Part shown: in pieces, positions 10,206 through 31,651 of the stretch
How positions within the stretch are numbered: the first letter of the stretch is position 1
Layout: every line of letters begins with the position of its first letter
Origin: a virus
Strand: one strand, 5' to 3'
IMG/VR virus record: IMGVR_UViG_3300006108_000021
Coordinates: 1 to 47,101 of that record
DNA length: 47,101 nucleotides
Made by a program: the position numbers and the translations under genes
The notes under the pieces: generated by a model
Seen by the model: only the letters and a program-made list of their open reading frames with translations
Databases searched by the model: none
What the model was told of the DNA's origin: nothing

Positions 10206-10213
10206 TATTTATA
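10206..10213 (-). promoter_or_regulatory. T4-type late promoter for GIY-YIG gene
   Basis: Exact minus-strand TATAAATA, 29 bases upstream of the ATG at 10177 and between the polymerase stop and the endonuclease start. Confidence 0.75.
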
Positions 10214-12140: not shown

Positions 12141-14363
12141 TTAAAGTTCCAGTACGGAGATACAGACATCGGTATCTCTATTTATGTCCACCGGCTTTAC
12201 TTCTAACAGTTTTCCATCGCGCTTGATCATAAGAGAATGGTCTTCCGTAATTATTACCCATTTACCATTCTCCAGCTCTATCTTAAAGCGGCGCTTTGGT
12301 GTCTTATGTCGATACACTGATTTTACTTTTAGCAGTTTAGGTGTTTCACCCTTAAATCCAAGGGCACAGAATCCAATACCATCTGCTTCAGCAAATTCTT
12401 TACCTGTATTTGTTTGATGTTTAATTGGTAAAGAATCGAAAAGCTCCTGAACTGTAAGATTTCCAACTGAAGTACTCACAACAGTTAGCGGGTCAACTGA
12501 GTCTGTATCCCCATAGATGATCGCGTCAGAGATAGAATGGTATTCATGGACTAGCTTGCCATCCTTGTCCGTCGTCGTGGTCTTGATGAGAGGATTGCGG
12601 GTTCCAGTTAGGAGCTCGTCAATCGTCTCGACCATGTGCGTCGTGATTGCACGTCCAGTTGCGGTAACCGAAGCACCCATGCGCTCATCGCCGAAACGGA
12701 AGGCGACATTGAGGAGGGCGCCATACAGAGAGTTCATCGAGATTTTCTTGGTCAGCTGCAGCAGATCGTAGTGATCTTCCTGAATCTTGTACTCGGCCTT
12801 CTTGATCGGATCTTTTTCATCCTTGGCAAGCTTGGCGTACTTCTTCTTTTCAGCTTGAAGACGCTTGCGCTCTGCGTACCAGAACCCGAGGATGTCAGCA
12901 ACGACACCCTTGCCCTTGCCTTGGTCAAAGACGGTGCCATATGCGGAGATGGCCCATTTCTGTTCCTTGAGGACCGCCTTCCAGTCCTTGGCTTCGGCAA
13001 CGTGCTGCTCACCGCTCTCAAGGATCAGAGTGAGACGAACATCGCTGCCCTTTCGGATTTCAGCCCATGCTTCTTCGTTCGAAGTGAACTGACCTACGAT
13101 CATCTCTGGTGAGATATTCAGGGATCGGATGGTGTTGGGGTACAGAGAGTTAATGTCAACCGAACCGATCCACTTGTGCAGACCGATCTTCGGGGTCATA
13201 ACGATGGCACCCTCGACCTTCTCATTGTGGCCGATGGTCTTGTCATGAACGATCTTGTTGAGCTTGTAGTGCGCGTGGTTCGTGATGCCCGTTTCCACGT
13301 AGGCCACGGTGCCAAGCACCGCCTCAAAGCCCACGGTGTTTTCATGGGCCATCTGGTTCGCGAGCGCGATGAACCTGAACTTTTCGTCTAGCTGAACCAG
13401 ACCTTCAACGTCTCGGAAGTTGTACGCGACGAAGGTAGGAAAGTCGTTGTGGTAAAGCTGCTCAAGTGTTCCATCGTACTCAAGCTTACCAACGCCAACC
13501 TCTTCTTGAAGGATGTTGCCAAGTGAGTAGGACACGCGACCTTCAAAGGTAAACTTCTGGAAGAGACGCATGTAGTCAAGGTGGCATCGGCCAGTGAACT
13601 TGTAGATTGGTTCTTCTGAACCAAAGCGGTTCACCATTTCTTTCTTAGGAGGCTTAACACCGACGTGCTCCATCTTGCGGAGCATTGGCTCACCACCGGC
13701 AAGAAGGAGACGTTCACAAATATAAGGGATGTCGAAGAACTCGGAGTTCCAGCCGGAGATGATGTCCGCTTCCTGGATCCATTCCAGCATGAGCACGAGA
13801 AGCTCTAGCTCATCGCGGCAGATGTGAACCTCTGGGGTGTTACCCTTGAACTTCACTAGCTCGTTAATCTTGTTGACGAGGTCTTCAGAAGTTCCAGTCC
13901 ATCCTTTAGGAGGAACCACCGCGGTCTTGTACTTCTTGGTCCACGATTGGTAGACCGTGACGCCATTGATTGGCGCATATGGATTGGTTGGACCAGCGAA
14001 GCCGATCTTTTGGGCGTAGTCGACCTCGATGTCGAGGAGGGCGAAGTTTACTGGGGGAGCTGGACGCCCATAGTAGTTGTCCATCAGCACCCGCTTTAGA
14101 GGCGGGATGTCGCTTTCAAACTTGATAGGAAAGTGACGCTGCGCATAGTCATACTGCTCGCGACTGTCAAACTCAGCGCGCACGAGCTTGTCCCCGAAGA
14201 TCGAGGTGTAGGTACCTTCCTCATCAGGGACATAGAAGTAGTAGGGTGGGTTGTAGCGCTTGCGGAACAACGAGCCCTGCGAGTCCCTTTCGAGAACCAC
14301 AATCTTGTCCGCAGCATAATCAACCCACGCCGCCACGTAGTTTCTGTCTTGATCTGTCGTCAT
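12141..14363 (-). CDS. 43: DNA polymerase N-terminal half fused to an N-intein
   Basis: 740 residues. Residues 1-621 are the N-extein of a family B, T4 gp43-like polymerase: Exo I (D111-I-E113), Exo II (SGWNSEFFDIPYI), Exo III (YNFRDVEGLVQLD), motif A (SVDINSLYPNTIRSLN), motif B (KKISMNSLYG) and the start of motif C (YGDTD). Residue 622 begins the intein, splitting motif C between DTD and the next Ser. The N-half alone has proofreading residues but an incomplete palm. The ATG at 14363 has only a distant GGAGG (12 bases) and a nine-codon upstream reading frame overlaps it, so its initiation may be regulated. Confidence 0.95.
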   Translation of the reverse strand: MTTDQDRNYVAAWVDYAADKIVVLERDSQGSLFRKRYNPPYYFYVPDEEGTYTSIFGDKLVRAEFDSREQYDYAQRHFPIKFESDIPPLKRVLMDNYYGRPAPPVNFALLDIEVDYAQKIGFAGPTNPYAPINGVTVYQSWTKKYKTAVVPPKGWTGTSEDLVNKINELVKFKGNTPEVHICRDELELLVLMLEWIQEADIISGWNSEFFDIPYICERLLLAGGEPMLRKMEHVGVKPPKKEMVNRFGSEEPIYKFTGRCHLDYMRLFQKFTFEGRVSYSLGNILQEEVGVGKLEYDGTLEQLYHNDFPTFVAYNFRDVEGLVQLDEKFRFIALANQMAHENTVGFEAVLGTVAYVETGITNHAHYKLNKIVHDKTIGHNEKVEGAIVMTPKIGLHKWIGSVDINSLYPNTIRSLNISPEMIVGQFTSNEEAWAEIRKGSDVRLTLILESGEQHVAEAKDWKAVLKEQKWAISAYGTVFDQGKGKGVVADILGFWYAERKRLQAEKKKYAKLAKDEKDPIKKAEYKIQEDHYDLLQLTKKISMNSLYGALLNVAFRFGDERMGASVTATGRAITTHMVETIDELLTGTRNPLIKTTTTDKDGKLVHEYHSISDAIIYGDTDSVDPLTVVSTSVGNLTVQELFDSLPIKHQTNTGKEFAEADGIGFCALGFKGETPKLLKVKSVYRHKTPKRRFKIELENGKWVIITEDHSLMIKRDGKLLEVKPVDINRDTDVCISVLEL
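12144..12500 (-). other. Split intein, N-terminal fragment (polymerase)
   Basis: 119 residues beginning S-V-D-P-L-T. First residue Ser, not Cys. Block B is TEDH (residues 85-88 of the fragment). It stops without block F/G, which are supplied by the fragment at 11065-11193. The insertion point equals the archaeal pol-c site in motif C. Confidence 0.9.
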
Positions 14364-19501: not shown

Positions 19502-20023
19502 TTACGAGGCCAGCCGGGAGCTCTTCAACAGATGCACCAGCGGGTAATGTTGATCTTGTGGATGGTAGACCCTGTACCCGGTGAGAACACCGGTATTTGG
19601 ATCAGTCTGCTCCCAAGCGTAGCGAGGTTGTCCATCGCCAGCTGCTCGGGTTTCTTCTGGAGAAAACTTGGCGTTAAAGATGTACGCGGGGACAACGACA
19701 CCAACGCAGGTCTTGAGCCCCTTGAGGGAGACTTCGTCCTCATAGAAGGCAACCCACGGGAAGTCAACCGCCGCAACGATGGCCTCTTCAGCAGCATCGA
19801 TACCGGCTGCAGGACCACCGTTCAGAGTGATGAACGTCTTGTGAAGGTTGGCCCAGTTCTGAACGAGGCTGCGCTGGTACTCATCATACCGCAGCGGGCT
19901 CGTCACCAGGTATTTCATCACGAGGTCTACCGCGCAGTGACCCGTCTGAATGCCCTGTTGGATCGAGGACAGATAGAAGTTCACAAAGCAGTAGAAGCGC
20001 AGTTCTTGATCGAGGTCTTCCAT
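19502..20023 (-). CDS. Unknown protein with weak peptidyl-tRNA hydrolase 2-like pattern
   Basis: 173 residues from the ATG at 20023, which has GAAGG upstream. The earlier in-frame ATG at 20044 would coincide with the predicted transcription start of the promoter at 20052-20080 and lacks a site. Segments such as IQQGIQTGHCAVDLVMKYL and WANLHKTFITLNGG recall the PTH2 fold (helix after strand 1, HKTxxxL strand), but the usual Lys near the N-terminus is not evident. First gene of its early transcript, followed by the secreted His/Arg-rich protein gene. Confidence 0.7.
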   Translation of the reverse strand: MEDLDQELRFYCFVNFYLSSIQQGIQTGHCAVDLVMKYLVTSPLRYDEYQRSLVQNWANLHKTFITLNGGPAAGIDAAEEAIVAAVDFPWVAFYEDEVSLKGLKTCVGVVVPAYIFNAKFSPEETRAAGDGQPRYAWEQTDPNTGVLTGYRVYHPQDQHYPLVHLLKSSRLAS

Positions 20024-20051
20024 AGTGCCTTCACAGTTATCCATTTGGTTG

Positions 20052-20080
20052 ATTATACACCGCTTCTCAGCAGATGTAAA
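20052..20080 (-). promoter_or_regulatory. Early sigma70-type promoter (TTTACA-17-TATAAT)
   Basis: Minus strand: TTTACA at 20075-20080, 17 bases, perfect TATAAT at 20052-20057. It starts the transcript of the genes from 20023 down to at least 18641, and its position argues for the downstream start codon of the first gene. Confidence 0.83.
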
Positions 20081-20083
20081 CGA

Positions 20084-21436
20084 TTATGTGCGTCCGATCA
20101 GCATGAACCGCTTGTATTGCGGAAAGGCGCGGGTTCCCTCGTAGAGCACCTCAGAGAGGTTCAAAAGCCTCTTTAGCTCCACCGCAGAGTCGACCGTAGA
20201 AACATGGCCTTCCCCTTCTTCGTAGTCGTTGTTCTGCACAACCACGATCTTTCCAGCAGGCAGCTTCTTGCGCCAGCTAGGAATGTTGGGGATATGCTCT
20301 GACGAGGTGTTGATGATGACATCGTACTCGTTGTAGTTGACCTCATACATGTCCTCGCACTTCGTCAAAAAGTCGTAGTCATAGTTGAACTTTTCAGCGA
20401 TGCGGTTAGCACGAGCGTCTAGATCAATGCTGGTAACAGAAAATGGCAGCTCAAAACAGTTCATCAGAAGAGCGAGAGTGCCAATCCACCCGCCAAGAAT
20501 AGCAATGCGAAGTTTGCCTTCAGCCTCTGGACCGATTTTGCCGTGAACCATCAGCTTATTGAGTTCCTCGATGAGCCACATCTTGCTCAACATCTGTCCA
20601 TCAGACATTGCATCTCTGAGCTCGGTGATGGGAAGATGTTCAATCACAAACGGGTCATATAGAGCGCCCGCGATCCTCGAGGTAAAGAAAAGTTCACTGC
20701 GCATTGGGTTATCCTTTTTAGGAGAAGGATCGATATCGAGATCGATTGATGGGTAGCTCTCATGGAAGAGGCTAAGCTGCAAGTCATGATCGTTGATAAA
20801 CATCAGATCAGACGTAGTTTTGCGGCGCTTGGCTTCTGCAATCCCAGCTCTAGCACCGCCCGCTACAAACTCTCTGAACTCTGCCTTCTTAAGCGGATCA
20901 ATCCACCCCTGCAAACGATCCTTTGCTTCCTCACGGATGGATTCAGGAAGAGTCTCATCGTGCTGGGTTCGGTAAAGCTTCACGCTTTCTCTAAAGGCGC
21001 CTCGATAGGCTCTGAAAGGATCAGAGTTAAAGCGGGTGATGCCAGCGATTTCAGGAATAACTTTGATGTCCTTCGTCAGGGTCGTCGTAAAGTCCAGCTG
21101 GGTCTTTACGTCCTTAAAGAACTTCTTGCTAAAGAGCTTGATGCCGCCGTAACCATAGTCCGCGCCTGTTGCAGGGTTGTAGGAGTGCCAAACATGAACG
21201 TAGTTGGCCTCATGGATGGTCGGCTTGTAGTCAAAGTTGAACGTGTCAAAGACTTCCGTATCACCATCAACGACGTAGAAGAAAGTTGTGTTCGCTTTCT
21301 TTGCGGCCTCGATGTGGGCGTTCGCAATGCCCTTGACTCCGTGAACCCGCTTTGCGTGTGGGAATCGGGTCTTTAGGTCTTTCCAGTTTGCGGATGCGTT
21401 GGGTTCGTCATATGAGATAAAGATGATGTCAAGCAT
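20084..21436 (-). CDS. Glycosyltransferase-like domain fused to SAM methyltransferase-like domain
   Basis: 450 residues. Residues 1-about 240 are homologous to the 322-aa protein at 31648-32616: SYDEP near the start, a VKG(I/F)xxAH helix, D57-G-D59 (DxD-type), YGYGGIKLFSKKF and a DPFRAYRGAFRESVKL stretch. The DxD and layout suggest a GT-A-like nucleotide-sugar enzyme. Residues 308-450 look like a class I SAM methyltransferase: LRIAILGGWIGTLALLM as motif I, acidic SIDLD at 337-341, and a later NEYDVIINTSSEHI strand. A two-step sugar-transfer and methylation enzyme is a reasonable guess; the substrate is unknown. It is followed by an early promoter and preceded by a GTG-start gene whose stop abuts its ATG. 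Confidence 0.75.
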   Translation of the reverse strand: MLDIIFISYDEPNASANWKDLKTRFPHAKRVHGVKGIANAHIEAAKKANTTFFYVVDGDTEVFDTFNFDYKPTIHEANYVHVWHSYNPATGADYGYGGIKLFSKKFFKDVKTQLDFTTTLTKDIKVIPEIAGITRFNSDPFRAYRGAFRESVKLYRTQHDETLPESIREEAKDRLQGWIDPLKKAEFREFVAGGARAGIAEAKRRKTTSDLMFINDHDLQLSLFHESYPSIDLDIDPSPKKDNPMRSELFFTSRIAGALYDPFVIEHLPITELRDAMSDGQMLSKMWLIEELNKLMVHGKIGPEAEGKLRIAILGGWIGTLALLMNCFELPFSVTSIDLDARANRIAEKFNYDYDFLTKCEDMYEVNYNEYDVIINTSSEHIPNIPSWRKKLPAGKIVVVQNNDYEEGEGHVSTVDSAVELKRLLNLSEVLYEGTRAFPQYKRFMLIGRT

Positions 21437-21742
21437 TTACAGGAAGAGCTCCTCGAGCTTGTAGACCACCCCATCGTGGACGAGAGACGGTCGCGTTCGA
21501 ATGTAAACGCGGAGCGGGGTGCGCTTGTGCTTTGTCAGGATGACATCACAGAACGTCAGGTCATTAGACAGCTCGAGACGCTCAACAGCAACTCCCGCGG
21601 TCTCGAAGGAGAGGTTGATCGTCTCAAGAATGGTTTCTTCTGTCTGCGGGGTGTCGCTCGCAATGGTCTCGTTAAAGCTCTGAATGGCTTTGAAACCGTC
21701 GGGGACTTTGCAGGTAAAGAGGGTTTGATACTTAAATTCCAC
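21437..21742 (-). CDS. Small unknown protein, GTG start
   Basis: 101 residues from a GTG at 21742 with AGGA seven bases upstream. Mixed alpha-beta sequence ending HDGVVYKLEELFL; no family recognised. Its stop directly precedes the ATG of the fusion enzyme at 20084-21436. A near-late promoter CATAAATA lies 26 bases upstream. It is separated from the DraRnl-type ligase gene by an inserted GIY-YIG endonuclease gene on the other strand. Confidence 0.7.
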   Translation of the reverse strand: MEFKYQTLFTCKVPDGFKAIQSFNETIASDTPQTEETILETINLSFETAGVAVERLELSNDLTFCDVILTKHKRTPLRVYIRTRPSLVHDGVVYKLEELFL

Positions 21743-21767
21743 GAAGCAATCCTATCTCTAGTCGAGA

Positions 21768-21775
21768 TATTTATG
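21768..21775 (-). promoter_or_regulatory. Late-type promoter, one mismatch
   Basis: Minus-strand CATAAATA in the gap between the GTG-start gene and the GIY-YIG gene; a usable late element for the genes at 21437-21742 and 20084-21436. Confidence 0.5.
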
Positions 21776-21792
21776 CTCTCTCCAATCTTCCC

Positions 21793-21800
21793 AATAAATA
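21793..21800 (+). promoter_or_regulatory. Late-type promoter for GIY-YIG gene, one mismatch
   Basis: Plus-strand AATAAATA, 15 bases before the endonuclease ATG at 21815, leaving only a few bases of leader. Confidence 0.4.
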
Positions 21801-21814
21801 AAAACAGGTTACTA

Positions 21815-22600
21815 ATGCAAACTATGATACACTACGTCTACAAAACAAGAATTAACGGAACTTCCCTCTACTATATAGGTAAGAGAAGTACCGCTTTGCC
21901 TTTAGATGAAGATCATTATACTGGATCAGGCACGCTTCTACACGATTATCCAAAATCTATTCGCTCTAAGGAGATCCTCAGAGTATGCGAATCAGAACAA
22001 GAAGCATATGAACTTGAAAAATCACTAGTTGGTGATCTATGGAAAACTGATCCAAATTGCCTTAATCAAAAACCTGGTGGGAAAGGTGCTCCTTCGGGTA
22101 TAGATCACCATTGGTTTGGAAAACCATCAGCATATAATTGCCGCGGAGATAAGCATCATGCGTTTGGGAAAAAGAGAACACCTGAGGAGCGAGAAAAAAT
22201 AAAGCAAGGTCTTCTACAAAGACCAGAATCAATCTATCTTAGGGGAGAAAATCATCCAGGTTTTGGCAAACAGCGATCAGAAGAAACAAAGAAAAAGCTT
22301 TCAGACAAAATGCGTGGGAAAATCATGCTCCCATTTTCTGATCAGCAAAAGAAAAATATGAGTTTAGCAGCCACAGGTAAATCTAAATCTATAGAACATA
22401 GAAAGAATCTATCACATGCCCTACGAAACCGAAGTGATGAAGAGAGAAGGGCTACGCTAGAAAAGAGAAGGAAGACCATTAAGTTTTATCTCGATGGTCT
22501 TCCCTTTGCATCATACAACCAAGCCGCAGAGCATTTTTCTATAACAACACATGAAGTAAAGAAAAGACTTAATCTTTTTCTTTCTCCAAAAATTTGTTAG
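21815..22600 (+). CDS. GIY-YIG homing endonuclease with NUMOD3 repeats
   Basis: 261 residues from the ATG at 21815 (an ATG three codons later is equally possible). The frame stays open farther upstream, but that part is antisense to another gene. HYVYKTRINGTSLYYIGKRS is the GIY-YIG core, with a Glu-rich helix near residue 65 (EQEAYELEKSL). The middle carries NUMOD3-type repeats (GDKHHAFGKKRTPEERE, GENHPGFGKQRSEETKK). The C-terminus (FYLDGLPFASYNQAAEHF) looks like a NUMOD1-type helix-turn-helix. A/T-rich against its neighbours. Its last 32 bases overlap the end of the RNA ligase gene tail-to-tail. Confidence 0.87.
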   Translation: MQTMIHYVYKTRINGTSLYYIGKRSTALPLDEDHYTGSGTLLHDYPKSIRSKEILRVCESEQEAYELEKSLVGDLWKTDPNCLNQKPGGKGAPSGIDHHWFGKPSAYNCRGDKHHAFGKKRTPEEREKIKQGLLQRPESIYLRGENHPGFGKQRSEETKKKLSDKMRGKIMLPFSDQQKKNMSLAATGKSKSIEHRKNLSHALRNRSDEERRATLEKRRKTIKFYLDGLPFASYNQAAEHFSITTHEVKKRLNLFLSPKIC

Positions 22601-23711
22601 AAATTGCCTTGAAGCTGAACTTTCCGTCTTCACGCTTGAACACAACACCCTCACGAACAGGGTGTGTCAGGCTTGGGCCTTCAGCGAAGGCAAGCAGCTC
22701 ATCAACGTTGGTGATGCCGAGCTCACGAAGGCTGACGTCTGCATGGAGAATAGGAACGTGGTTGACCGCACCCAGAAGCTTGGTCATTAGTTCCATCCGC
22801 TCCGCTGGGGTGAGGTACTTGCCAGTGTCGAGGTTCTGTGCATCGAAGATGAACAGTTGGTGGCCCTTGATGGCCTCACGGTTTCCCTGGATGCCTTCAC
22901 CCATCAGCTCGCCTTGAATAGCAATGTTGCCGATGAGCGGCAGATGAGTGCCAAGGCGAGCCTCTTCGAAGGTTTTCACCAGCGTGTTGTCCGCGTTCTC
23001 ATCGCCGAGCTTCAGCTCGAGGTTGCGGCTGCAAACGCCGATGTCGCCATCACGGAAGTATGCTGTGAAGCTCGTGCCGTCCAGCTTCACGGTGACCTCG
23101 TAGCGAGCGTCAACATCTGAGAAGATGTCCTCGACCAGGTTCTGACAGCGCTCCTGATCTGTCTTACGAATGAAGCTTGGGAACAGTCCACGAACCTTAC
23201 CAGCGAGAGATGCGGGAAGAGCAGGCTCCCACTTCTTAATACCGAGGAGCGCGGCGAGATCAACCTGATCAAGTCGCTCTTGGACCTCAGGGTCAAACAC
23301 GACTGCGCGATGCATTTCGACCATCACATCCAGTCCATGGATTGCCTTCATGTCCTTGACAACATCAGGATCAACAAGCAGGTTGACACCAACGCTCTGA
23401 AGGATTTCAGGGAACGCATCAAGGCGCAGCGCCAGACCCTGGCTGATTTGACCGCGGAGACGGATCGTGCGAAGCTTATGACCTCTTTGACCCTCGAACT
23501 CGCGAACACCAGACTTCATCAGGAAGGCATAGCGAGGATCCGACTCAGGCAGGAAGCTGTCGATCTCAAAGTAGACGCAAGGATCGCCAGCGGCGAACTC
23601 GTTCTTCTTGACGACCAGCTTCCAGCCATCTACGGTCGCTACCTCAATGGCGTCTGCACCCTCGATAGGGTTAACTGCCGCTACGCGGCGAACTGTTACC
23701 AACTTTCTCAT
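22569..23711 (-). CDS. RNA ligase, DraRnl (Rnl5) type with N-terminal OB fold
   Basis: 380 residues. An N-terminal OB-like domain (about 1-100, with VDGWKLVVKKNEFAAGDPCVYFEID) precedes a nucleotidyltransferase domain: motif I K209-L-D-G212 (VKLDGTS), motif III-like GNIAIQGELMGEGIQGN, motif IV REGVVFKRE and motif V FKAISNKFLEK. This order, OB first, is that of the Deinococcus radiodurans Rnl family, which seals nicked RNA or RNA-DNA junctions. The C-terminal codons overlap the GIY-YIG gene. The ATG at 23711 overlaps the stop of the upstream gene (ATGA). Confidence 0.88.
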   Translation of the reverse strand: MRKLVTVRRVAAVNPIEGADAIEVATVDGWKLVVKKNEFAAGDPCVYFEIDSFLPESDPRYAFLMKSGVREFEGQRGHKLRTIRLRGQISQGLALRLDAFPEILQSVGVNLLVDPDVVKDMKAIHGLDVMVEMHRAVVFDPEVQERLDQVDLAALLGIKKWEPALPASLAGKVRGLFPSFIRKTDQERCQNLVEDIFSDVDARYEVTVKLDGTSFTAYFRDGDIGVCSRNLELKLGDENADNTLVKTFEEARLGTHLPLIGNIAIQGELMGEGIQGNREAIKGHQLFIFDAQNLDTGKYLTPAERMELMTKLLGAVNHVPILHADVSLRELGITNVDELLAFAEGPSLTHPVREGVVFKREDGKFSFKAISNKFLEKEKD

Positions 23712-23920
23712 TCATCGTTCTCCAGATTGGCGTGCTTTAGAATGCGCTTCATGACCGCTTCTTCAGTGCACGCAATAATTATTCCCTGGCGGATCAGATC
23801 GTTTAGACCACCAATCTTCATTTCTCCGGGAGGAGTGCCAGGCGGATTGTCCATTGGGATTTTCTGCAGGACCTCGCAGACCTCTTCACGGGTGATGGGA
23901 TACTGCCGTATGTTTCGCAT
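23708..23920 (-). CDS. Small unknown protein
   Basis: 70 residues. EEVCEVLQKIP, a Pro/Gly-rich turn (NPPGTPPGEMK), then a helix with CTEEAVMKRILKHA. GGAGA precedes the ATG at 23920; its stop overlaps the RNA ligase start (ATGA) and its start follows the upstream stop (TGAATG). Unknown function; possibly works with the ligase. Confidence 0.7.
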   Translation of the reverse strand: MRNIRQYPITREEVCEVLQKIPMDNPPGTPPGEMKIGGLNDLIRQGIIIACTEEAVMKRILKHANLENDE

Positions 23921-24277
23921 TCAGTTTCTCCGCATCGTTGCGATTTCAAGAGCGTCTTCCTTCTTGAAGACCGGAACCATGTTCGACTTGTGCATCGTGG
24001 CGATCCCGATAAGGTTACTGCCCGTGTAGACGTTGGCCTCCTTCTTAGCGGTCACGTTGCTCATACCCTTCATCGTCATGACGGAGGGATACTGCGTGGG
24101 TTCGAAGGGAACCGAACTTGGCTTCATCTTCGTCCGCTTGCGCCTTGGCGGCTTTTGGTTCCACGGTCGTCCCGTAAGAGCCTCAATCCGCTTCCGCTCT
24201 TCGCGAATGCGACGTTCTTCTTCCTGCTTCAGCTCACGCCTTTTACTGGCGGACATCATAAAGGCACGAGTGCCCAT
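23921..24277 (-). CDS. Basic unknown protein
   Basis: 118 residues with a highly charged helical N-terminus (ASKRRELKQEEERRIREERK) and a basic Pro patch (NQKPPRRKRTKMK). A mixed C-terminal region follows. Strong AAAGGAGGT ribosome site before the ATG at 24277, which lies inside the end of the preceding gene. Nucleic-acid binding is plausible from charge only. Confidence 0.72.
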   Translation of the reverse strand: MGTRAFMMSASKRRELKQEEERRIREERKRIEALTGRPWNQKPPRRKRTKMKPSSVPFEPTQYPSVMTMKGMSNVTAKKEANVYTGSNLIGIATMHKSNMVPVFKKEDALEIATMRRN

Positions 24278-24561
24278 GCGACCTCCTTTGGAATGTTCCC
24301 ACGCTTTGGATCATGGACCACGTCGGTCCAGAAAATACAGATCGCGCCGTCCCAATATTCGATGTCGTAGGTTCGACGCGACAGCTCTTGTTTGGTTACG
24401 ATTCTGAACGATCCATAACGATGCCGACTATGGATGCCCATCGTACTTTGGTACATGAACGCGCATCCCTGACGATAGCCATTTTCCTTTGCTCGGCGAA
24501 AGGTTTCTTCAAGAGCCTCCTTAGGAGACTCCATGAAGATGTCATAGATGCGTCTGCTCAT
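24256..24561 (-). CDS. Small unknown protein
   Basis: 101 residues, Arg/Tyr-rich, with ALEETFRRAKENGYRQGCAF and YDIEYWDGAICIFWTDVVHD. Overlaps both neighbours (ATGA at its start, 22 bases at its end). No family recognised. Confidence 0.68.
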   Translation of the reverse strand: MSRRIYDIFMESPKEALEETFRRAKENGYRQGCAFMYQSTMGIHSRHRYGSFRIVTKQELSRRTYDIEYWDGAICIFWTDVVHDPKRGNIPKEVAWALVPL

Positions 24562-24824
24562 TGCGAGTATGATTTACGATTGCTAGGGCAGATTTCCTGG
24601 ACCGGGCATTCGTCGCAGTACCACTCGTCCCCTTCTTTTTCAAGGGTTAGCCTACATCCCCACGGGGTAGGGGTGTCCTTACCCGGACCCCATGTCCAGC
24701 GAACAGGCATCGTATCTGCAATCTTAGTGCAGAGCTTCTGCATCTTCCTGGTCTGGGTCAGTGACTGGACCTTCACATCATTTCGAAGAGCGTCGTACTC
24801 TTCTTGGGTCAGGATGTACTGCAT
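24558..24824 (-). CDS. Small Cys-rich protein, unknown function
   Basis: 88 residues from the ATG at 24824, overlapping the RnlA C-half stop as TGATG. LTQEEYDALRND opens a helix. The C-terminal part has a cysteine cluster (WYCDECPVQEICP plus one Cys upstream in WGCRL), which could hold zinc or an iron-sulfur cluster. Coupled to RnlA C-half expression. Function unknown. Confidence 0.7.
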   Translation of the reverse strand: MQYILTQEEYDALRNDVKVQSLTQTRKMQKLCTKIADTMPVRWTWGPGKDTPTPWGCRLTLEKEGDEWYCDECPVQEICPSNRKSYSQ

Positions 24825-25762
24825 CAATCACCTTCAGCGACAGAGGGAACCAGCACGAGCTGGCGAAGAGAGAACTGCTCACGCAGAATGGTACGTTCGA
24901 AGAACTCCTTAAACGACGGTTCACGACCCTGATAGCGAGCCATCAGAAGACCGAAGTGCGGCGAGGCCTTGTGCTTGATCGCGAAGTCCTTTCTCTCAAG
25001 ATGCCCATCCTCGTTGAAGATCACATCTACGTTGAGAGCGAGCTCACGGAGAATGTGGAGGACGCGCTCTTCGATTTGGAGAACCTCATCGATGTTCACG
25101 CCTTCACCCACGAGCATAGCCTTCAGATCGTCAAGACCTTCTTCCAGAACCAGTACGGCGATGTCGCGCTCGCGAAGGAACGTCATGGCGCGGTGGCGCT
25201 TCAAGTACCATTGGGTCTTGAGCTTGACCATCTCACCATTCTCGAACTGGATTACCCAGCCCTCGATGCCCTCGATCGTCTGAGCCGTCTCCAACATCTT
25301 GGCGATGTCGAGCTTCTCACCGTCCCAGAAGCCCGTGACAGGGTCAACTACCTTCACGTTGAAGCGCATTCCAAGATAGAACACGTCGTCATACGTGTGG
25401 TACTCACCGGTCACATTGTCTCGAACGTGCAGAAGCTGAAGCTCCGGCTCGGGATAGTGAAGCACGATGCGCGCGTCTGGCGCCGTCCATTCGAAGATGG
25501 CCGTGCAGTCCAGCGTAGCGAGATGTTCCACGAGACGCAGAACGTTCTTGCTTTCCTGCTCGTGCATCCACTTCTCGGCTGCAATCGCAACCTCAGACGT
25601 GAACGTCTTCTTCGACTTCAGGCGAATGCCATTCTTGGTGATCACCGTGTGGATCATCGAGTTATGGACAAGAATGTCGTTCGCAAAAAAGTTCTCAGTC
25701 CCAGTCTGAATGTCGTACCGTTCTGAGTGATTTTCAACCTTGGAGATGTTCAGAATTTTCAT
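24824..25762 (-). CDS. rnlA: RNA ligase 1 C-terminal half fused to a C-intein
   Basis: 312 residues. Residues 1-34 are an intein C-fragment ending FFANDILVHN, like the C-fragments of phage gp41 split inteins. Residues 35-312 (278) are the C-extein of a T4 Rnl1-type ligase, starting SMIHTVITKNG. Strong matches to T4 Rnl1 include AIFEWTAPDARIVLHY, RDNVTGEYHTYDDV, IEGWVIQFENGEMVKLK and DDLKAM. T4 Rnl1 repairs the anticodon loop of tRNA-Lys cut by the host PrrC nuclease. The gene has its own early promoter (25814-25842), needed because the endonuclease gene upstream points the other way. Ribosome site before the ATG is weak. Confidence 0.95.
   Translation of the reverse strand: MKILNISKVENHSERYDIQTGTENFFANDILVHNSMIHTVITKNGIRLKSKKTFTSEVAIAAEKWMHEQESKNVLRLVEHLATLDCTAIFEWTAPDARIVLHYPEPELQLLHVRDNVTGEYHTYDDVFYLGMRFNVKVVDPVTGFWDGEKLDIAKMLETAQTIEGIEGWVIQFENGEMVKLKTQWYLKRHRAMTFLRERDIAVLVLEEGLDDLKAMLVGEGVNIDEVLQIEERVLHILRELALNVDVIFNEDGHLERKDFAIKHKASPHFGLLMARYQGREPSFKEFFERTILREQFSLRQLVLVPSVAEGD
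25661..25762 (-). other. Split intein, C-terminal fragment (RNA ligase)
   Basis: 34 residues, block F YDIQTGTENFFANDI and block G LVHN, with Ser as +1. Short length is typical of naturally split inteins. It pairs with the N-fragment at 26787-27083. Confidence 0.93.
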
Positions 25763-25804
25763 AGGGCACCGATGATGGAAAAGTGTGACGCGGACGCATT
25801 TGTC

Positions 25805-25812
25805 TATAAATA
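25805..25812 (+). promoter_or_regulatory. T4-type late promoter for Vsr-like endonuclease
   Basis: Exact plus-strand TATAAATA, 35 bases before the ATG at 25847. It points opposite to the early promoter beside it (25814-25842), so the ligase half would be early and the endonuclease late. Confidence 0.75.
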
Positions 25813-25813
25813 G

Positions 25814-25842
25814 ATTATATCACAGTCGATCTAGAAAGTACA
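25814..25842 (-). promoter_or_regulatory. Early sigma70-type promoter for RnlA C-half
   Basis: Minus strand: TGTACT at 25837-25842, 17 bases, perfect TATAAT at 25814-25819 preceded by GTGA as in other sites of this family. The -35 is weaker than in the others. Confidence 0.65.
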
Positions 25843-25846
25843 CAGT

Positions 25847-26815
25847 ATGAAACCGTATAAACCACTAATATGCCCGATCTGCGGGGCTAGTTCAAAGCTA
25901 CCACACTACAAAACTTGCGGTAAGGATCGTCCCAAAGATGAGTTTAAACTACAGGTGTTGGTCAATAATCATTCAAAGATTGATTTGTCAGATAAAGATT
26001 TGATCAATAAACTGTACATTGAAGACGAACTATCATCCGTTGATTTTTACAACGTGTTTGATGTTGGTATTAAGGTGCTGTACTTTGTACTTGATATGCA
26101 CAGTATCCCAAAACGAGACCTTTTAGCCGCGAATAATACCAGCTCAGTCAAAAAGAAATATAGAGAAACGTGTTTGATAAAATACGGAACCACTAATACT
26201 TTATCAAAAGGATCTGTTGGATATGTTACTCGCCAAAAAACACTAAAGGAACGTTATGGTGCCGTAAATGTATTTCAACTCAAAGATATCCAAGATAAAA
26301 TAACCAACACTCACATTCAACGTTATGGTAAGAAAAGGATAAATCCTTATGAAAATCTTACCGATGAACAACTATACGCTTTGCACCAAAAGAAATATAA
26401 CACGATGATCGCCAATGGAACGTTACCGTATTACTTCAAAATCAACAAACTTGAAACTCGCGTCGCGAACTGTTTGACTTCCCTTGGAATCCCATTTCAA
26501 TATTCATTTTTCATCAAGGGGGTCCAATACGACTTTTTGATAAACAATGTTGTTCTTGAAGTACACGGGGATTTCTGGCACGCGAATCCTAAGTTTTACA
26601 CAGAAGAAAGCGTATTAAACTTTCCAGGTAAGACACCTCAGATCATCGCAAAGGATCTTTGGAAAAAAGATCTAAAGAAACAGAATATCGCAATCAAATC
26701 TGGGTATCAATACCTATCAATCTGGGAGAATGATATAAACTCCAAGACAGATGTTGAACTTGAAGAGTTTATCCTATTACAACTCAGTACAGTTGTTGAA
26801 CTTCATCCTCTGTAG
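25847..26815 (+). CDS. Vsr-like homing endonuclease in antisense within the broken rnlA gene
   Basis: 322 residues. An N-terminal CPICG...CGK finger-like segment, then repeats of the form CLIKYGTTNTLSKGS, TLKERYGAVNVFQ and HIQRYGKKR. The C-terminal nuclease domain reads DFLINNVVLEVHGDFWHANP, followed by KDLKKQNIAIKSGYQYLSIW, clearly related to the polymerase-associated enzyme at 11169-12140. Related Vsr-fold enzymes were described with fractured split-intein genes in environmental phage data. Unlike the polymerase case it is on the opposite strand, overlapping the end of the N-half gene by 32 bases tail-to-tail. It has its own exact late promoter. A/T-richer than flanking genes. Confidence 0.9.
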   Translation: MKPYKPLICPICGASSKLPHYKTCGKDRPKDEFKLQVLVNNHSKIDLSDKDLINKLYIEDELSSVDFYNVFDVGIKVLYFVLDMHSIPKRDLLAANNTSSVKKKYRETCLIKYGTTNTLSKGSVGYVTRQKTLKERYGAVNVFQLKDIQDKITNTHIQRYGKKRINPYENLTDEQLYALHQKKYNTMIANGTLPYYFKINKLETRVANCLTSLGIPFQYSFFIKGVQYDFLINNVVLEVHGDFWHANPKFYTEESVLNFPGKTPQIIAKDLWKKDLKKQNIAIKSGYQYLSIWENDINSKTDVELEEFILLQLSTVVELHPL

Positions 26816-27377
26816 TAAGTTGATCAACTCGAACATATTCTGCCCGGTTGATACACCACACCAGGTGGTTTCCCGTCAGTTTGATCTTCTTCCTATTCTC
26901 CATCTCAATTTCATACCAATCATCGTTGTTCGGTTGGACCTTGTGATCCAGGATAGGGGTCCATTGAACTTCATTTGAGACATGATTCCATCCCAGGACT
27001 AATCCTGAATATTTGGAGTCACACGCCTCCTTGATAGACATTGGTCCGTCCGCGGTGTTCAACACGGTATCCGCGTCACAACAGCCATCGCGCTTGTCCA
27101 TGACGCGCGTGACCTTCGACCAATCCAGGTTTTCAACTCGCGTGCTCTCGCGCTCGTTCACGTTGAAGAACTTGTGGAGGGGGCGGCCCACAACCGAACC
27201 GGTCTCGTTGTCGAACACGATCCCGCGGCACTCTCGAGACCAAACGTCATCGAAGGTTCCCTCAGCAGCGATCATGTAGCAGAAGGACGTGCATCCCTCG
27301 CCAATGTCCATCTCGCGCATCTCCTCCTTGTGGGCTACGCGCGAGCGGAACTCGTCGATGTGTTTGATGTCGAGCAT
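26784..27377 (-). CDS. rnlA: RNA ligase 1 N-terminal half fused to an N-intein
   Basis: 197 residues. Residues 1-98 are the N-extein of a T4 Rnl1-type ligase (SRECRGIVFDNETG, then RPLHKFFNVNE, as in T4) and end exactly with the nucleotidylation motif K95-R-D-G98. Residue 99 starts the intein. The active-site lysine matches T4 Lys99 in position. Neither half could be active alone: the N-half has the lysine, the C-half the remaining motifs. Predicted spliced ligase is 376 residues (T4 Rnl1: 374). It lies downstream of two small genes in a transcript from the early promoter at 28072-28100. Confidence 0.95.
   Translation of the reverse strand: MLDIKHIDEFRSRVAHKEEMREMDIGEGCTSFCYMIAAEGTFDDVWSRECRGIVFDNETGSVVGRPLHKFFNVNERESTRVENLDWSKVTRVMDKRDGCCDADTVLNTADGPMSIKEACDSKYSGLVLGWNHVSNEVQWTPILDHKVQPNNDDWYEIEMENRKKIKLTGNHLVWCINRAEYVRVDQLTTEDEVQQLY
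26787..27083 (-). other. Split intein, N-terminal fragment (RNA ligase)
   Basis: 99 residues beginning C-C-D-A-D-T (block A, Cys1) with block B TGNH near residue 71. It ends shortly after RVDQLTTEDEV, so all later blocks come from the fragment at 25661-25762. Confidence 0.93.
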
Positions 27378-27378
27378 G

Positions 27379-27798
27379 TTAAACTTTCAGTGCGTTTTCG
27401 TTGTATTCGATGAGGTGTGCATCTTCCAGAGAAAGCTGCATCGTGTTATTGTCGCCGACAACCGGCAGATTTGCGAGCTGCTGAAGACGCTCATACCACC
27501 GGCACTCCCGACGGCTCAAAGCGCCGTATGCGCTTGAGGCCCAGTGAAGAGTGTTGTCCTCGAACTCTTTGATAAGTTCTTCAACCCGCTGATCAACCGT
27601 CGGAACCGGCTTCTGCTTTCGGAACAGCTTCACGAAGAACTTTTGGTTCTGCTCCTCGCGGAACTTGATCTGGTCCTCAGCGCACTTTCGAACCTTCTTC
27701 GCGATGTAATCCTCTTGCCGCTTGATTTCAAGCTCGGCGCAATAGTTCACGACCCGGATTTTGGCCGGGATCGTGGAGGCGTTCATATTATCGGACAC
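27379..27798 (-). CDS. Unknown helical protein, GTG start
   Basis: 139 residues from a GTG at 27798 (GGAG seven bases upstream; the later ATG has no site). Long charged helix (ELEIKRQEDYIAKKVRKCAE onward), then a short C-terminal domain. It lies directly before the RnlA N-half and overlaps the preceding gene by 11 bases. No family recognised; joint expression with RnlA is clear, shared function is not. Confidence 0.7.
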   Translation of the reverse strand: MSDNMNASTIPAKIRVVNYCAELEIKRQEDYIAKKVRKCAEDQIKFREEQNQKFFVKLFRKQKPVPTVDQRVEELIKEFEDNTLHWASSAYGALSRRECRWYERLQQLANLPVVGDNNTMQLSLEDAHLIEYNENALKV

Positions 27799-28045
27799 AG
27801 CAGTTCTCCAGGTTCGGGTGGTTGGGGCCGTAGGTCCGCAGAATGCTTTCCCGCTTGGCTTTTTCGATCTGCTCTTTCAGTAGGGCAAGCCGCGGCAGCC
27901 CAACATCAGGACGGATCTGAACGTTGTACGGTGCTTCCTGCAGTATCTTACGATACGCGTCAGGCAGATTATCGTAGAAGGCCATGCGTGCTTCAAGCCC
28001 GCGATTGACCGACTTAAACTCACCGCCACCGTTGTTCGTTGCCAT
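27788..28045 (-). CDS. Small unknown protein
   Basis: 85 residues, first gene after the early promoter at 28072-28100, with GAGG before the ATG. Contains ARMAFYDNLPDAYRKILQEA and a C-terminal Cys pair (NLENCCVR). Unknown. Confidence 0.7.
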   Translation of the reverse strand: MATNNGGGEFKSVNRGLEARMAFYDNLPDAYRKILQEAPYNVQIRPDVGLPRLALLKEQIEKAKRESILRTYGPNHPNLENCCVR

Positions 28046-28071
28046 CTTAGCCTCATCGACATTGATGAGAC

Positions 28072-28100
28072 AATATACCCTGAACCTGGTGCTATGTAAA
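28072..28100 (-). promoter_or_regulatory. Early sigma70-type promoter (TTTACA-17-TATATT)
   Basis: Minus strand: TTTACA at 28095-28100, 17 bases, TATATT at 28072-28077. The -35 overlaps the stop region of the upstream gene. Drives two small genes and the RnlA N-half. Confidence 0.78.
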
Positions 28101-28325
28101 CAGGGAAGTACCGCTCGCCAGATTTTTTAGCTCGTCAGGATGGACGTACCCCTTGATGAGAATGGCGGGATCATCGACGCATTTCAGTTCGATGTGGGTG
28201 TCGCGATAGTGAAGTGCGACGACCTCGAACTCATGGTCCTTATACGCGTCATAATAAGGAGCGTATGGGGCTTTGAAAACTTTCGGGTTGAATACGACCC
28301 GTTGACCAATGGTAATCAGCTTCAT
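28092..28325 (-). CDS. Small unknown protein
   Basis: 77 residues from the ATG at 28325, chosen because AAGGAGG lies six bases upstream; the longer frame has none. Beta-rich (KLITIGQRVVFNPKVF, EFEVVALHYRDTHIELK), perhaps a small barrel of the SH3/Tudor kind. ATGA overlap with the cREC gene, so the two are coupled. Confidence 0.72.
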   Translation of the reverse strand: MKLITIGQRVVFNPKVFKAPYAPYYDAYKDHEFEVVALHYRDTHIELKCVDDPAILIKGYVHPDELKNLASGTSLFT

Positions 28326-28636
28326 GTTTCCTCCTTGCCGAGGTGCTCGATAAACCAATCCATGAGGCCTCGTATGTTTGCTGCCCCCACTGGATTCTGA
28401 CTGTGAACGTCATATTTGCGTGGGAAGGGAAGCGACTCATCGTCCATCACCGCGTTGATCATGTATTTGATCAGCCGCATCGACGTGTCATCTCCTCCCA
28501 GATCATGGTCGAAGCTGATGAACTCTGGGAATCCGTCTCGTTCGATAAGCGCGATGGCTTCAGCTGAGGAGCGAACGATCACCCATCCATCGGTAGCCGG
28601 GAACCTTTCATCGTCTATGAACATCTTGTACGACAT
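28322..28636 (-). CDS. Cyclic-phosphate-processing receiver-like (cREC) protein
   Basis: 104 residues from the ATG at 28636. The pattern MFIDDERFP at 5-13, EFISFDHDLGG at 38-48 and VHSQNPVGAANI at 77-88 is that of the cyclic-phosphate processing receiver domain (Pfam cREC), a REC-fold family proposed from comparative genomics to act on 2',3'-cyclic phosphate RNA ends. It stands three genes upstream of the RnlA N-half, so an RNA-repair role fits: it could prepare cut ends for ligation. The biochemistry of the family is largely predicted, not shown. The start lies unusually close to the possible promoter at 28642. Confidence 0.8.
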   Translation of the reverse strand: MSYKMFIDDERFPATDGWVIVRSSAEAIALIERDGFPEFISFDHDLGGDDTSMRLIKYMINAVMDDESLPFPRKYDVHSQNPVGAANIRGLMDWFIEHLGKEET

Positions 28637-28641
28637 GGACC

Positions 28642-28669
28642 ATCCTATCACTTCTGCGGCAGAAGTAAA
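28642..28669 (-). promoter_or_regulatory. Possible early promoter (TTTACT-16-TAGGAT)
   Basis: Minus strand: TTTACT at 28664-28669, 16 bases, TAGGAT at 28642-28647 preceded by GTGA as in its relatives. If real, the transcript would be leaderless or nearly so for the cREC gene, because TAGGA also serves as its ribosome site. Confidence 0.4.
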
Positions 28670-28670
28670 C

Positions 28671-30155
28671 TCAGAAAACGCGGACGTCGTATTTCTTTTC
28701 CCAGCGAATGGCATCCTCGACCGTGTTGACTAGAGGCTCACCCTTGATGTTGAGCGACGTGTTCAGCAGCATAGGACATCCGGTCTTGGCGTGCCACTTC
28801 TCCAGGATTTCACGGAGGATGGGAGCCTCAGCCCCAACAGTCTGGACCCGAGCAGTGTTGTCGAAGTGCGAGATTGCGGGGTACTTCTTCGGAGAGATGA
28901 CGTCCACCACGTACTGCATGTAAGGTGCTGAATCGGTTCCCATTGGGAACACGAAGCACTTTGACGCGTGCTCTTCGAGAACAGCCGGAGCGAAAGGACG
29001 GAACATCTGGCGATGCTTAATCTGGTTGACACGGTCCTTCATGTCTGGTCTGCGTGGGTCGGCCAGCAGGGATCGATTGCCGAGAGCACGAGGTCCAAAC
29101 TCAGCGCGTCCATGGGCAACGCCGCAAAGCCCGACCGTTGAAAGGTGCTCAACGATCTGATCGGTGTTGAACTCGCGGATGATGTTGTGACCAAGGAAGG
29201 GACCTTCCCACTGTAGCTGCGAGCCAACAAACTTCGCCGCGGCGCCAAGGGAGTTACCCGCATCACCTGGATTTGGCATGATCCAGACGTTCTTGAACTG
29301 GTGCTTCACATGAGAGTTCGCAACACAGTTCAGAGCAACACCACCTGAGTAGACTAGGTTGTTAGAGTTTACAAGCGATGCAGCCTTCATCATTATTTGA
29401 CGAATAAAGAACTCAGTGACGCGTTGAGCTGCGAGTGCTAGCGTATACTTGCCTTCATCTGAAGAAGTATACGCGTTAAGAACATCGTCGTGTCGAACTC
29501 CCTGGTGGAAGTTGTAGCTCTGCCAGATTCCAGTATGCGCTCTGTGGTAGGTGCTGAAGATGTACTTCGCGATGTCAGCTGCCTGCTCGGAGTTGCCATA
29601 CGCTGCCATTCCCATAAGGATGTACTCCTCTTCATTTGGCTTCAGCCCCACGAGATCGGTAATCGCGCTGTAGAACAGGCCGACAGATTGTGGGTACTTC
29701 AGCTCCCACTTTCTAATGAGCTGATCTCCTCGACCTTCCCAAATAGAAGCCGTGGTCGTTTCACCAATCGCATCGATGACAACGATCGCCGCATCAGAGA
29801 AGCCGCTCGTGTAGTAGCCGCCTGCAGCATGAGACGCGTGGTGATTTGAGTAGGACATCGGAGCGTTGATGCCGTACTGACGCATGTAGGCGCGAGGAGA
29901 CTTTTCGGTTAGAAGATCGTACTGTCCGCTCTTGAGGTAGCGAAGCTTGCGACCCCATGGATTTTCAAACCACGCGACCTTTTCTGGATAGCCCCAAAGG
30001 AGAGCGTCCTTAATGAGGCCCGTGTTCAGGTCACAGTCGTTCTTGATCCTGCTATACCGCTCGGCATGACCGGCGAACAGGATTTCCTTTGACTCGGCGT
30101 CGACGACGCTGATGGATGCGTCATGGTTGTTTGCGTTGACGCCCCATACGATCAT
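28671..30155 (-). CDS. Carbamoyltransferase, NodU/TobZ family
   Basis: 494 residues. The N-terminal Kae1-like domain has VNANNHDASISV, SNHHASHAAGGYY with the metal-binding His residues near 103-107, and VVIDAIGETTTASIW. The C-terminal YrdC-like/transferase region holds GRAEFGPRALGNRSLLADPR, the family signature. These enzymes transfer a carbamoyl group from carbamoyl-adenylate to a hydroxyl, usually of a sugar. It ends a seven-gene operon running from 35385, with the radical SAM gene overlapping by ATGA. Carbamoylation of a sugar on DNA or on a surface glycan is inferred; the acceptor is unknown. Confidence 0.9.
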   Translation of the reverse strand: MIVWGVNANNHDASISVVDAESKEILFAGHAERYSRIKNDCDLNTGLIKDALLWGYPEKVAWFENPWGRKLRYLKSGQYDLLTEKSPRAYMRQYGINAPMSYSNHHASHAAGGYYTSGFSDAAIVVIDAIGETTTASIWEGRGDQLIRKWELKYPQSVGLFYSAITDLVGLKPNEEEYILMGMAAYGNSEQAADIAKYIFSTYHRAHTGIWQSYNFHQGVRHDDVLNAYTSSDEGKYTLALAAQRVTEFFIRQIMMKAASLVNSNNLVYSGGVALNCVANSHVKHQFKNVWIMPNPGDAGNSLGAAAKFVGSQLQWEGPFLGHNIIREFNTDQIVEHLSTVGLCGVAHGRAEFGPRALGNRSLLADPRRPDMKDRVNQIKHRQMFRPFAPAVLEEHASKCFVFPMGTDSAPYMQYVVDVISPKKYPAISHFDNTARVQTVGAEAPILREILEKWHAKTGCPMLLNTSLNIKGEPLVNTVEDAIRWEKKYDVRVF

Positions 30156-31651
30156 TCGTCTGCTTCCTTGGGCTTGATGTTGTTGATCAGCGTGTGCATC
30201 GCTGGACGTTCTTTAGGGATGCCAGCAGCTTCACGAGCTAGACGAGCGGCACGAATCTCATGTCCTTGCAGATAGACAGGGACAAGCTCTGGGAATACCG
30301 CGGTGAACTGGGTGTCGCGGCGACGGTCCATCTCATCGAAGAACCCAACGAGCGCGTCCAGCTGTTCTGGATCCTGCTCTACCGAGTTCATGAAGTTGAC
30401 GAGACGATTGATCTGGTCAACCTCTTCCAGAAGAAGGGCAGAGTTGTCGTCTGGCTGTCTGTTCGTGTGGTGCTTCTCGATTGAACCAAGCATTTTGTAC
30501 TTGAAGTCGATCTTGCCCTGCTTGTCTAGAAGGGTGATGGACATGTGGCGTGGCCAACGAAGGTAGGCAATGTTGAAGCCGACGCGGCGGCGGTTAGGAC
30601 GACCACCGTAAGCGAGACGAAGCTCAGCGATGTAGTCAAGGAACCAATCAAACTTAGGAGCCGAAAGGATGTTGACGGTCGTCATGAACTGAATGCGAAC
30701 GAGAGGAGGAGTGTTCAGCAGGAAGTAGTCGATGTTGCTCGTGAACAGCTCCCAGTCCATTCCATAACGGGCATACTCTGCCTGCTCACCAACGGATTCA
30801 GTTGACGTGTAGATAACGATCTCACGAATCTTGCCATGGAGCTGGTTGATCTTGCTGCACAGCTTCTCGACCAGCTTACGTGGAATGCCCATGTTCGTGT
30901 TGATGCCAAGCTTGAAGTCTGGGCGTGGGTTGGCAATGATGTAGTCGAGAATCTTCCAGGTGTTCTCAGTCAAAAGCGGCTCGCCACCAGTAATGCGGAA
31001 TGTGTCAAGCGACTGATAAAGCTCTGGCCACCATTCCCAGAAAGCATCGATGTATGGGTTCTGTTCCTTGTGGTGAATCGGGAACTTGCCGACAGACTTC
31101 ATCCATTCAAGATCATGGTGCGTTTCACCGTTAGGCATCTTGTAGCCACCATGGGTCTGGATTTCTTCCATCCAGCGAGAGCTGACGTCGGGCGAGCAGT
31201 AGGTGCACTTGAAGTTGCAGATGTTTTCAAACGCAACTTCGAGATACGCAGGAGCGATCGTAGGACCAAGACCGGACTCAATCACAGCATCAAAGTTTTC
31301 CCACATGCCAAGTCCCCATGCAGACTTGTAGTGGCGATCTGAGAAGTGATCCTTGCCAAGGTTCTCGATGTTCCAGCAGTAGTCGCACTCCTTTGTCTGC
31401 ACACCATTCATCATGTCCTTGCGGGCAGCGATCTTGATAGGCGTGTTGTGGAGTCCGCGATGGTTGTGCTTGATCTCATCAATGTTGATCTTGTGCGCGG
31501 TTGGGTGGTGGCACGAATGCGTGTACCCGTTGTACAGGGTCGTAGTGGACTGAAGCCACTTGGCCAGACAGAACGTGGGGCTAACCGCGTTCAGCTTTTC
31601 AACTCGAGTCTTCAGAAGATCGAGGTGCTGCTTGTTTGCATCTGCGTTCAT
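30152..31651 (-). CDS. Radical SAM protein with N-terminal twitch-type Cys cluster
   Basis: 499 residues. CX3CX2C at C145, C149 and C152 (NICNFKCTYC) binds the SAM-cleaving 4Fe-4S cluster; FRITGGEPLL is the GGE motif. Before it, C28, C47, C89 and C92 (FCLAKW, HSCHHP, KECDYC) form a second Cys set of the twitch type, probably an auxiliary cluster, here N-terminal to the core. Phages carry such twitch-domain radical SAM proteins without known substrates. The gene is overlapped by ATGA junctions on both sides, between the carbamoyltransferase and a glycosyltransferase-like protein, so the three probably act on one product. Confidence 0.9.
   Translation of the reverse strand: MNADANKQHLDLLKTRVEKLNAVSPTFCLAKWLQSTTTLYNGYTHSCHHPTAHKINIDEIKHNHRGLHNTPIKIAARKDMMNGVQTKECDYCWNIENLGKDHFSDRHYKSAWGLGMWENFDAVIESGLGPTIAPAYLEVAFENICNFKCTYCSPDVSSRWMEEIQTHGGYKMPNGETHHDLEWMKSVGKFPIHHKEQNPYIDAFWEWWPELYQSLDTFRITGGEPLLTENTWKILDYIIANPRPDFKLGINTNMGIPRKLVEKLCSKINQLHGKIREIVIYTSTESVGEQAEYARYGMDWELFTSNIDYFLLNTPPLVRIQFMTTVNILSAPKFDWFLDYIAELRLAYGGRPNRRRVGFNIAYLRWPRHMSITLLDKQGKIDFKYKMLGSIEKHHTNRQPDDNSALLLEEVDQINRLVNFMNSVEQDPEQLDALVGFFDEMDRRRDTQFTAVFPELVPVYLQGHEIRAARLAREAAGIPKERPAMHTLINNIKPKEADE

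Follow-up and report, generated by a model that had tools for sequence, protein, structure and literature searches.

The DNA analysed here is a stretch of 47,101 nucleotides from an uncultivated phage, positions 1 to 47,101 of the IMG/VR virus record IMGVR_UViG_3300006108_000021 (hereafter, the window), and its locus of interest lies on the minus strand at 24824-27377, where an RNA ligase is encoded by two separate open reading frames (ORFs). The N-gene (26784-27377, minus strand) encodes 197 amino acid residues and the C-gene (24824-25762, minus strand) encodes 312. Profile searches and alignments confirm the prediction that the locus is a T4 Rnl1 (RnlA) gene in two pieces, with a split intein at the catalytic motif. 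Listed from the N-gene to the C-gene, its features are as follows.

27084..27377, minus strand: N-extein, RnlA residues 1-98 up to and including motif I K95-R-D-G98 (PF09511, phrog_562, alignment to T4 Rnl1 K99)
26784..27083, minus strand: N-intein with stop codon, 99 residues from Cys1, block B T168-G-N-H171 (TIGR01445, PF14890)
26784..26815, both strands: tail-to-tail overlap of the N-gene and the endonuclease gene, 32 bp (from the sequence)
25847..26815, plus strand: Vsr/EDxHD-type homing endonuclease, 322 residues, between the halves and antisense to the ligase (phrog_3339, homing endonuclease, Vsr)
25814..25822, minus strand: TGATATAAT, resembling an extended -10 element and facing the C-gene (consensus match only, without a -35 element in the scan)
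25805..25812, plus strand: TATAAATA, T4-type late-promoter motif, 34 bp ahead of the endonuclease ATG
25661..25762, minus strand: C-intein, 34 residues, ending V-H-N (TIGR01443)
24824..25660, minus strand: C-extein with stop codon, the remaining 278 residues of RnlA, starting with Ser+1 (PF09511, PF20819, TIGR02308, phrog_562)

Both junctions proposed in the initial annotation, namely a ligase part ending at K95-R-D-G98 before a Cys1 intein with TGNH, and a C-intein of 34 residues ending LVHN before Ser+1, were borne out by the intein and RnlA profile searches, which found homology on each side of both. Residues 1-98 of the N-gene product matched RnlA (PF09511, 1.4e-11; phrog_562, 1e-17), and from residue 99 onward the N-intein was recognized by PF14890 and by TIGR01445, the latter from model position 1. 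In the C-gene product, residues 1-34 matched TIGR01443 above its cut-off (1.2e-4) and residue 35 onward returned to RnlA (phrog_562, 9e-57; TIGR02308, 4e-37), the phrog_562 match breaking off at profile position 107 in the N-gene to restart at position 107 in the C-gene. When the intein halves were joined, PF14890 rose above its gathering cut-off (4e-9) and the NrdJ-1 split intein (8UBS) was matched at 1e-15. The joined exteins (98 + 278 = 376 residues, the length given in the initial annotation) aligned with residues 47-350 of T4 Rnl1 (2C5U) at 6e-36, running ungapped across the junction ('krdgsm' over 'kedgsl'), K95 occupying the position of T4 Rnl1 K99, the motif I KxDG lysine. They also contained the PF09511 nucleotidyltransferase domain (5.8e-35) and the Rnl1-specific C-terminal domain PF20819, the latter barely over its cut-off (4e-6). 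The TIGR02308 equivalog gave 128 bits for the C-gene and 36 bits for the N-gene against a cut-off of 242 set for an intact protein, the enzyme being a divergent relative scored as two pieces. The agreement of profiles and alignment at both junctions therefore indicates that the split-intein break is not a chance resemblance, and the gapless alignment places it directly after K-R-D-G, so that the +1 serine is the ligase's own residue.

All the residues of a class 1 split intein are present (C99, T168-G-N-H171, H33-N34 and the nucleophile S35 at +1), and the intein is divided over two separate genes, the break lying between blocks B and F. The C, T, N and H were invariant among five aligned N-genes, and H33-N34-S35 among four aligned C-genes. 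It is a sound inference that the predicted ligase would be active only after trans-splicing. The two halves could instead associate non-covalently and function unspliced, as is reported of a ribonucleotide reductase split by an endonuclease in a T4-like phage, but this is highly improbable given a split intein that is complete and conserved from Cys1 and block B to block G and Ser+1, and unspliced halves would keep about 100 foreign residues at the catalytic lysine loop. Neither a group I nor a group II intron separates the halves as judged by Rfam, which gave no match in 20000-31000, and chance or an assembly artefact was rejected because contigs from several metagenomes show the same layout.

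The ORF at 25847-26815, absent from the initial annotation, is a free-standing endonuclease gene between the ligase halves, as in the fractured-gene arrangement. Searched alone, its product gave weak matches to homing-endonuclease families and Vsr; its family profile matched the mobile intron protein 3R3P (9.5e-5) and Vsr 1CW0 (1.4e-4). Among 17 sequences the Vsr-like nuclease core residues D242 and H245 were invariant, and D229 and E238 were conserved at a level of at least 90%. Overlaps of 35-53 bp between the N-gene and the endonuclease gene recur in three further RnlA loci. The endonucleases of the four fractured RnlA loci cluster together (support 90/91) and are all antisense, in contrast to the remaining 17 in the tree, which, like every full-length endonuclease at the other ligase loci, are in sense orientation.

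Close RnlA relatives of the window ligase (L012-L017, L019 and others) are uninterrupted single ORFs with the exact empty site, which together with the profiles upholds the placement of the insertion exactly after KxDG of motif I. Over 15+15 nt around the empty site, 28/30 positions in L023 and 26/30 in L012 are identical to the joined flanks of the window. An insertion after motif I in L020 and L021, considered as a possible intein, proved to be a 12-residue loop, and in L053 (4878-6826) an antisense GIY-YIG-like ORF lies between two RnlA pieces without an intein, possibly a case of a divided gene that does without splicing. Four lineages have the fractured form of RnlA, represented by the window (equivalent to 3300025387_000012), L010 (equivalent to L011), L018 and L109 (equivalent to L112), and in the RnlA tree the fractured genes are scattered among intein-free ones; a single whole-clade origin was rejected by the approximately unbiased (AU) test (p 1e-43).

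Between the window and L010, identity at third codon positions was 0.36 in both exteins and 0.62-0.65 in the N-intein, endonuclease and C-intein, each of the latter three having a ratio of non-synonymous to synonymous substitution (dN/dS) of about 0.10. The G+C content at third positions in the window was 0.82 and 0.72 in the exteins versus 0.38-0.56 in the element. The element thus shows the sequence marks of purifying selection, of foreign composition and of horizontal movement, and because of these contrasts between element and exteins we read it as having passed from one lineage to another later than the divergence of the host genes, while being kept functional. The same data bear on the idea that the ligase is dead, an endonuclease gene having entered and broken a cis-intein and left the halves as relics. 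A two-piece gene does require an extra step to function, and a second RNA ligase with an uninterrupted motif I (22569-23711) might compensate for its loss. Nevertheless, such decay is very unlikely in view of the purifying selection on both intein halves and the endonuclease, the intact splicing residues, the C-gene's own start codon, and the recurrence of the layout in four RnlA lineages and in many other ligases.

Taken together, the locus is very probably the product of a mobile split-intein element that inserted by homing at motif I of rnlA in a phage, with trans-splicing restoring the ligase and the endonuclease spreading the unit; splicing, ligase activity, cleavage and homing are all deduced here from sequence. 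The N-intein, the antisense Vsr-type homing endonuclease and the C-intein would form one mobile unit within rnlA motif I. The two gene products would be made separately, after which the intein halves would pair and undergo trans-splicing by the class 1 route, with its Cys1, block B His, terminal Asn and Ser+1. This would rebuild K-R-D-G-S-M and with it the site of nucleotidyl transfer in an Rnl1 RNA ligase. In co-infecting phages with an intein-free rnlA, the endonuclease would cut that gene where it codes for KxDG, and this cut at the empty site would lead to spread of the entire unit. Four observations weigh against this reading: taken singly, the halves score only modestly against the intein profiles (about 3e-4 and 1e-4); a tree with the window and L010 as sisters was not rejected (AU p 0.38), so one shared insertion may explain both; differing base composition of the two phages could inflate their third-position contrast; and a strong ribosome-binding site is not evident ahead of the C-gene.

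The promoter motifs bear on how such separate products might be expressed. TATAAATA is the T4 late-promoter consensus and occurs in 6 copies in the window versus 0.32 expected. Of the 21 loci scanned, 7 had it no more than 80 nt ahead of the endonuclease gene (0.68 expected; 0/2000 resamplings), and 13 had a relaxed form there (1.4 expected). Because of this enrichment ahead of endonuclease genes, the endonuclease is probably expressed late from its own promoter. The 24 bp holding both TATAAATA and TGATATAAT (25799-25822) are identical in L010. A sigma-70 scan found no more promoters than in shuffled sequence, so the case for a C-gene promoter is that of the conserved TGATATAAT only, and separate expression of the C-gene is plausible. 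A promoter of its own for the C-gene would also suit the view that the intein is a post-translational switch, rather than purely selfish, delaying the ligase until the two halves have built up, for instance late in infection. That the insertions fall on the catalytic motif in many ligase families points the same way, and some other inteins splice conditionally (PMC8987985). Even so, a switch appears unlikely: the patchy distribution, the linked endonuclease and the faster horizontal movement suit a selfish element, and conserved active sites are the usual sites of inteins because excision must be exact (PMC5784728).

Scanning of IMG/VR with alignments of the N-gene and C-gene showed that the break is not a one-off. 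Besides the three other RnlA lineages, about 30 ligase loci bear related inteins at motif I, the same break occurring in Rnl1-like RNA ligases (PF09511), in ATP-dependent DNA ligases (PF01068, with Cys+1) and in DRB0094/Rnl5-type RNA ligases (TIGR02306), the last including two contigs of bacterial metagenome-assembled genomes. L249 and L212, taken for Rnl2 because of their KxHG motif, were reassigned to the DRB0094/Rnl5 type. In a tree of 45 inteins, 37 motif I ligase inteins (KxDG or KxHG) separated with support 100/98 from eight others (NrdJ, NrdA, UvsW-like helicases and terminases), in a sample biased by the patterns including KxDGC with which most ligase entries were found and with just these eight non-ligase inteins for comparison. 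We lean slightly towards a single split-intein lineage with co-diversifying Vsr-type endonucleases, specialized on motif I of covalent nucleotidyltransferases and crossing Rnl1, DRB0094/Rnl5 and ATP-dependent DNA ligases. If this is true, what the mobile element follows is a catalytic motif shared by several enzyme families, and not one gene, the break always falling just after KxDG or KxHG.

One Rnl1-like ligase (L113, 3404-4963) carries a contiguous intein of 127 residues at motif I without an endonuclease, possibly the ancestor or a fusion derivative of the split form. In its AlphaFold model (mean predicted local distance difference test score 70, with a poor intein end) Foldseek ranked T4 Rnl1 at the top and NrdJ-1 as the first intein, a result that is supportive only. 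In L130 (2711-4645) a split intein follows KLDG in a short protein that neither Pfam nor NCBIfam matches to a ligase; the protein may be a nucleotidyltransferase or ligase not yet described.

Other features of the window and related contigs include further inteins and homing endonucleases. A second fractured gene lies at 10240-14363 (minus strand), where a family B DNA polymerase is split by a split intein at YGDTD|S into halves at 12141-14363 and 10240-11193, with a sense endonuclease ORF (11169-12140; phrog_22677) between them. After the polymerase C-half stands a homing-endonuclease ORF at 9437-10177 (minus strand; phrog_314), with TATAAATA ahead of it at 10206-10213. The second RNA ligase (22569-23711, minus strand) is of the DRB0094/Rnl5 type (TIGR02306, 3.5e-61) with motif I KLDGTS, and at its 3' end it overlaps a homing-endonuclease ORF that contains NUMOD3 and runs antisense at 21476-22600 (plus strand). 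At 28671-31651 (minus strand) a Nol-like carbamoyltransferase adjoins a radical-SAM-like gene. Six fractured-RnlA contigs (L237, L239, L241, L242, L244 and L247) contain more inteins or split genes, their hosts, named by eye, being NrdA, a UvsW-like helicase, DNA polymerase and a portal-like protein.

The arrangement has known counterparts. A phage enzyme halved by a split intein, with a free-standing Vsr-related endonuclease gene between the halves, is reportedly what Dassa and colleagues called a fractured gene in 2009. The window locus shares with those genes the halved conserved phage enzyme, the split intein and the intervening Vsr-family endonuclease, and differs in its host, a T4 Rnl1-type RNA ligase broken at motif I. 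T4 RNA ligase 1 itself (Rnl1/RnlA; 2C5U, 5TT6) is encoded by an uninterrupted gene, whereas the chain in the window is broken after G98 of KxDG. The nearest solved intein, NrdJ-1 (8UBS), is also split and of phage type, but its host is a class II ribonucleotide reductase, and the 100/98 branch separates it from the ligase-site inteins. I-Bth0305I (3R3P), an EDxHD/Vsr mobile intron protein, is alike in matching the endonuclease family profile and differs in residing in a group I intron rather than between split-intein halves. The fractured uvsW of cultured Salmonella S16-group phages (L253, Gelderlandvirus) has the same order of N-half with N-intein, ORF, and C-intein with C-half, and its intein is 35% identical to one ligase intein; its host is, however, a DNA helicase. 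These phages would be a useful laboratory model of the arrangement.

The initial annotation regarded an RNA ligase fractured at its nucleotidylation motif as new. This held in that no report of an intein in an RnlA-type ligase was found in the open-library literature, with the host-enzyme list of Dassa 2009 outside the comparison, and no INPHARED phage had the window N-intein at E<=1e-5; as an isolated case it did not hold, given the related loci described above. The arrangement is known, and as far as could be checked what is new is its host enzyme. The enzymes assembled by natural protein trans-splicing would thereby gain an RNA ligase from the tRNA-repair and tail-fibre-attachment family, broken at the very motif of nucleotidyl transfer. 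The inteins found in ligases, about 37 in number and either split or contiguous, may serve as splicing tools, and the motif I set would offer a test of whether homing elements follow a catalytic motif between enzyme families.
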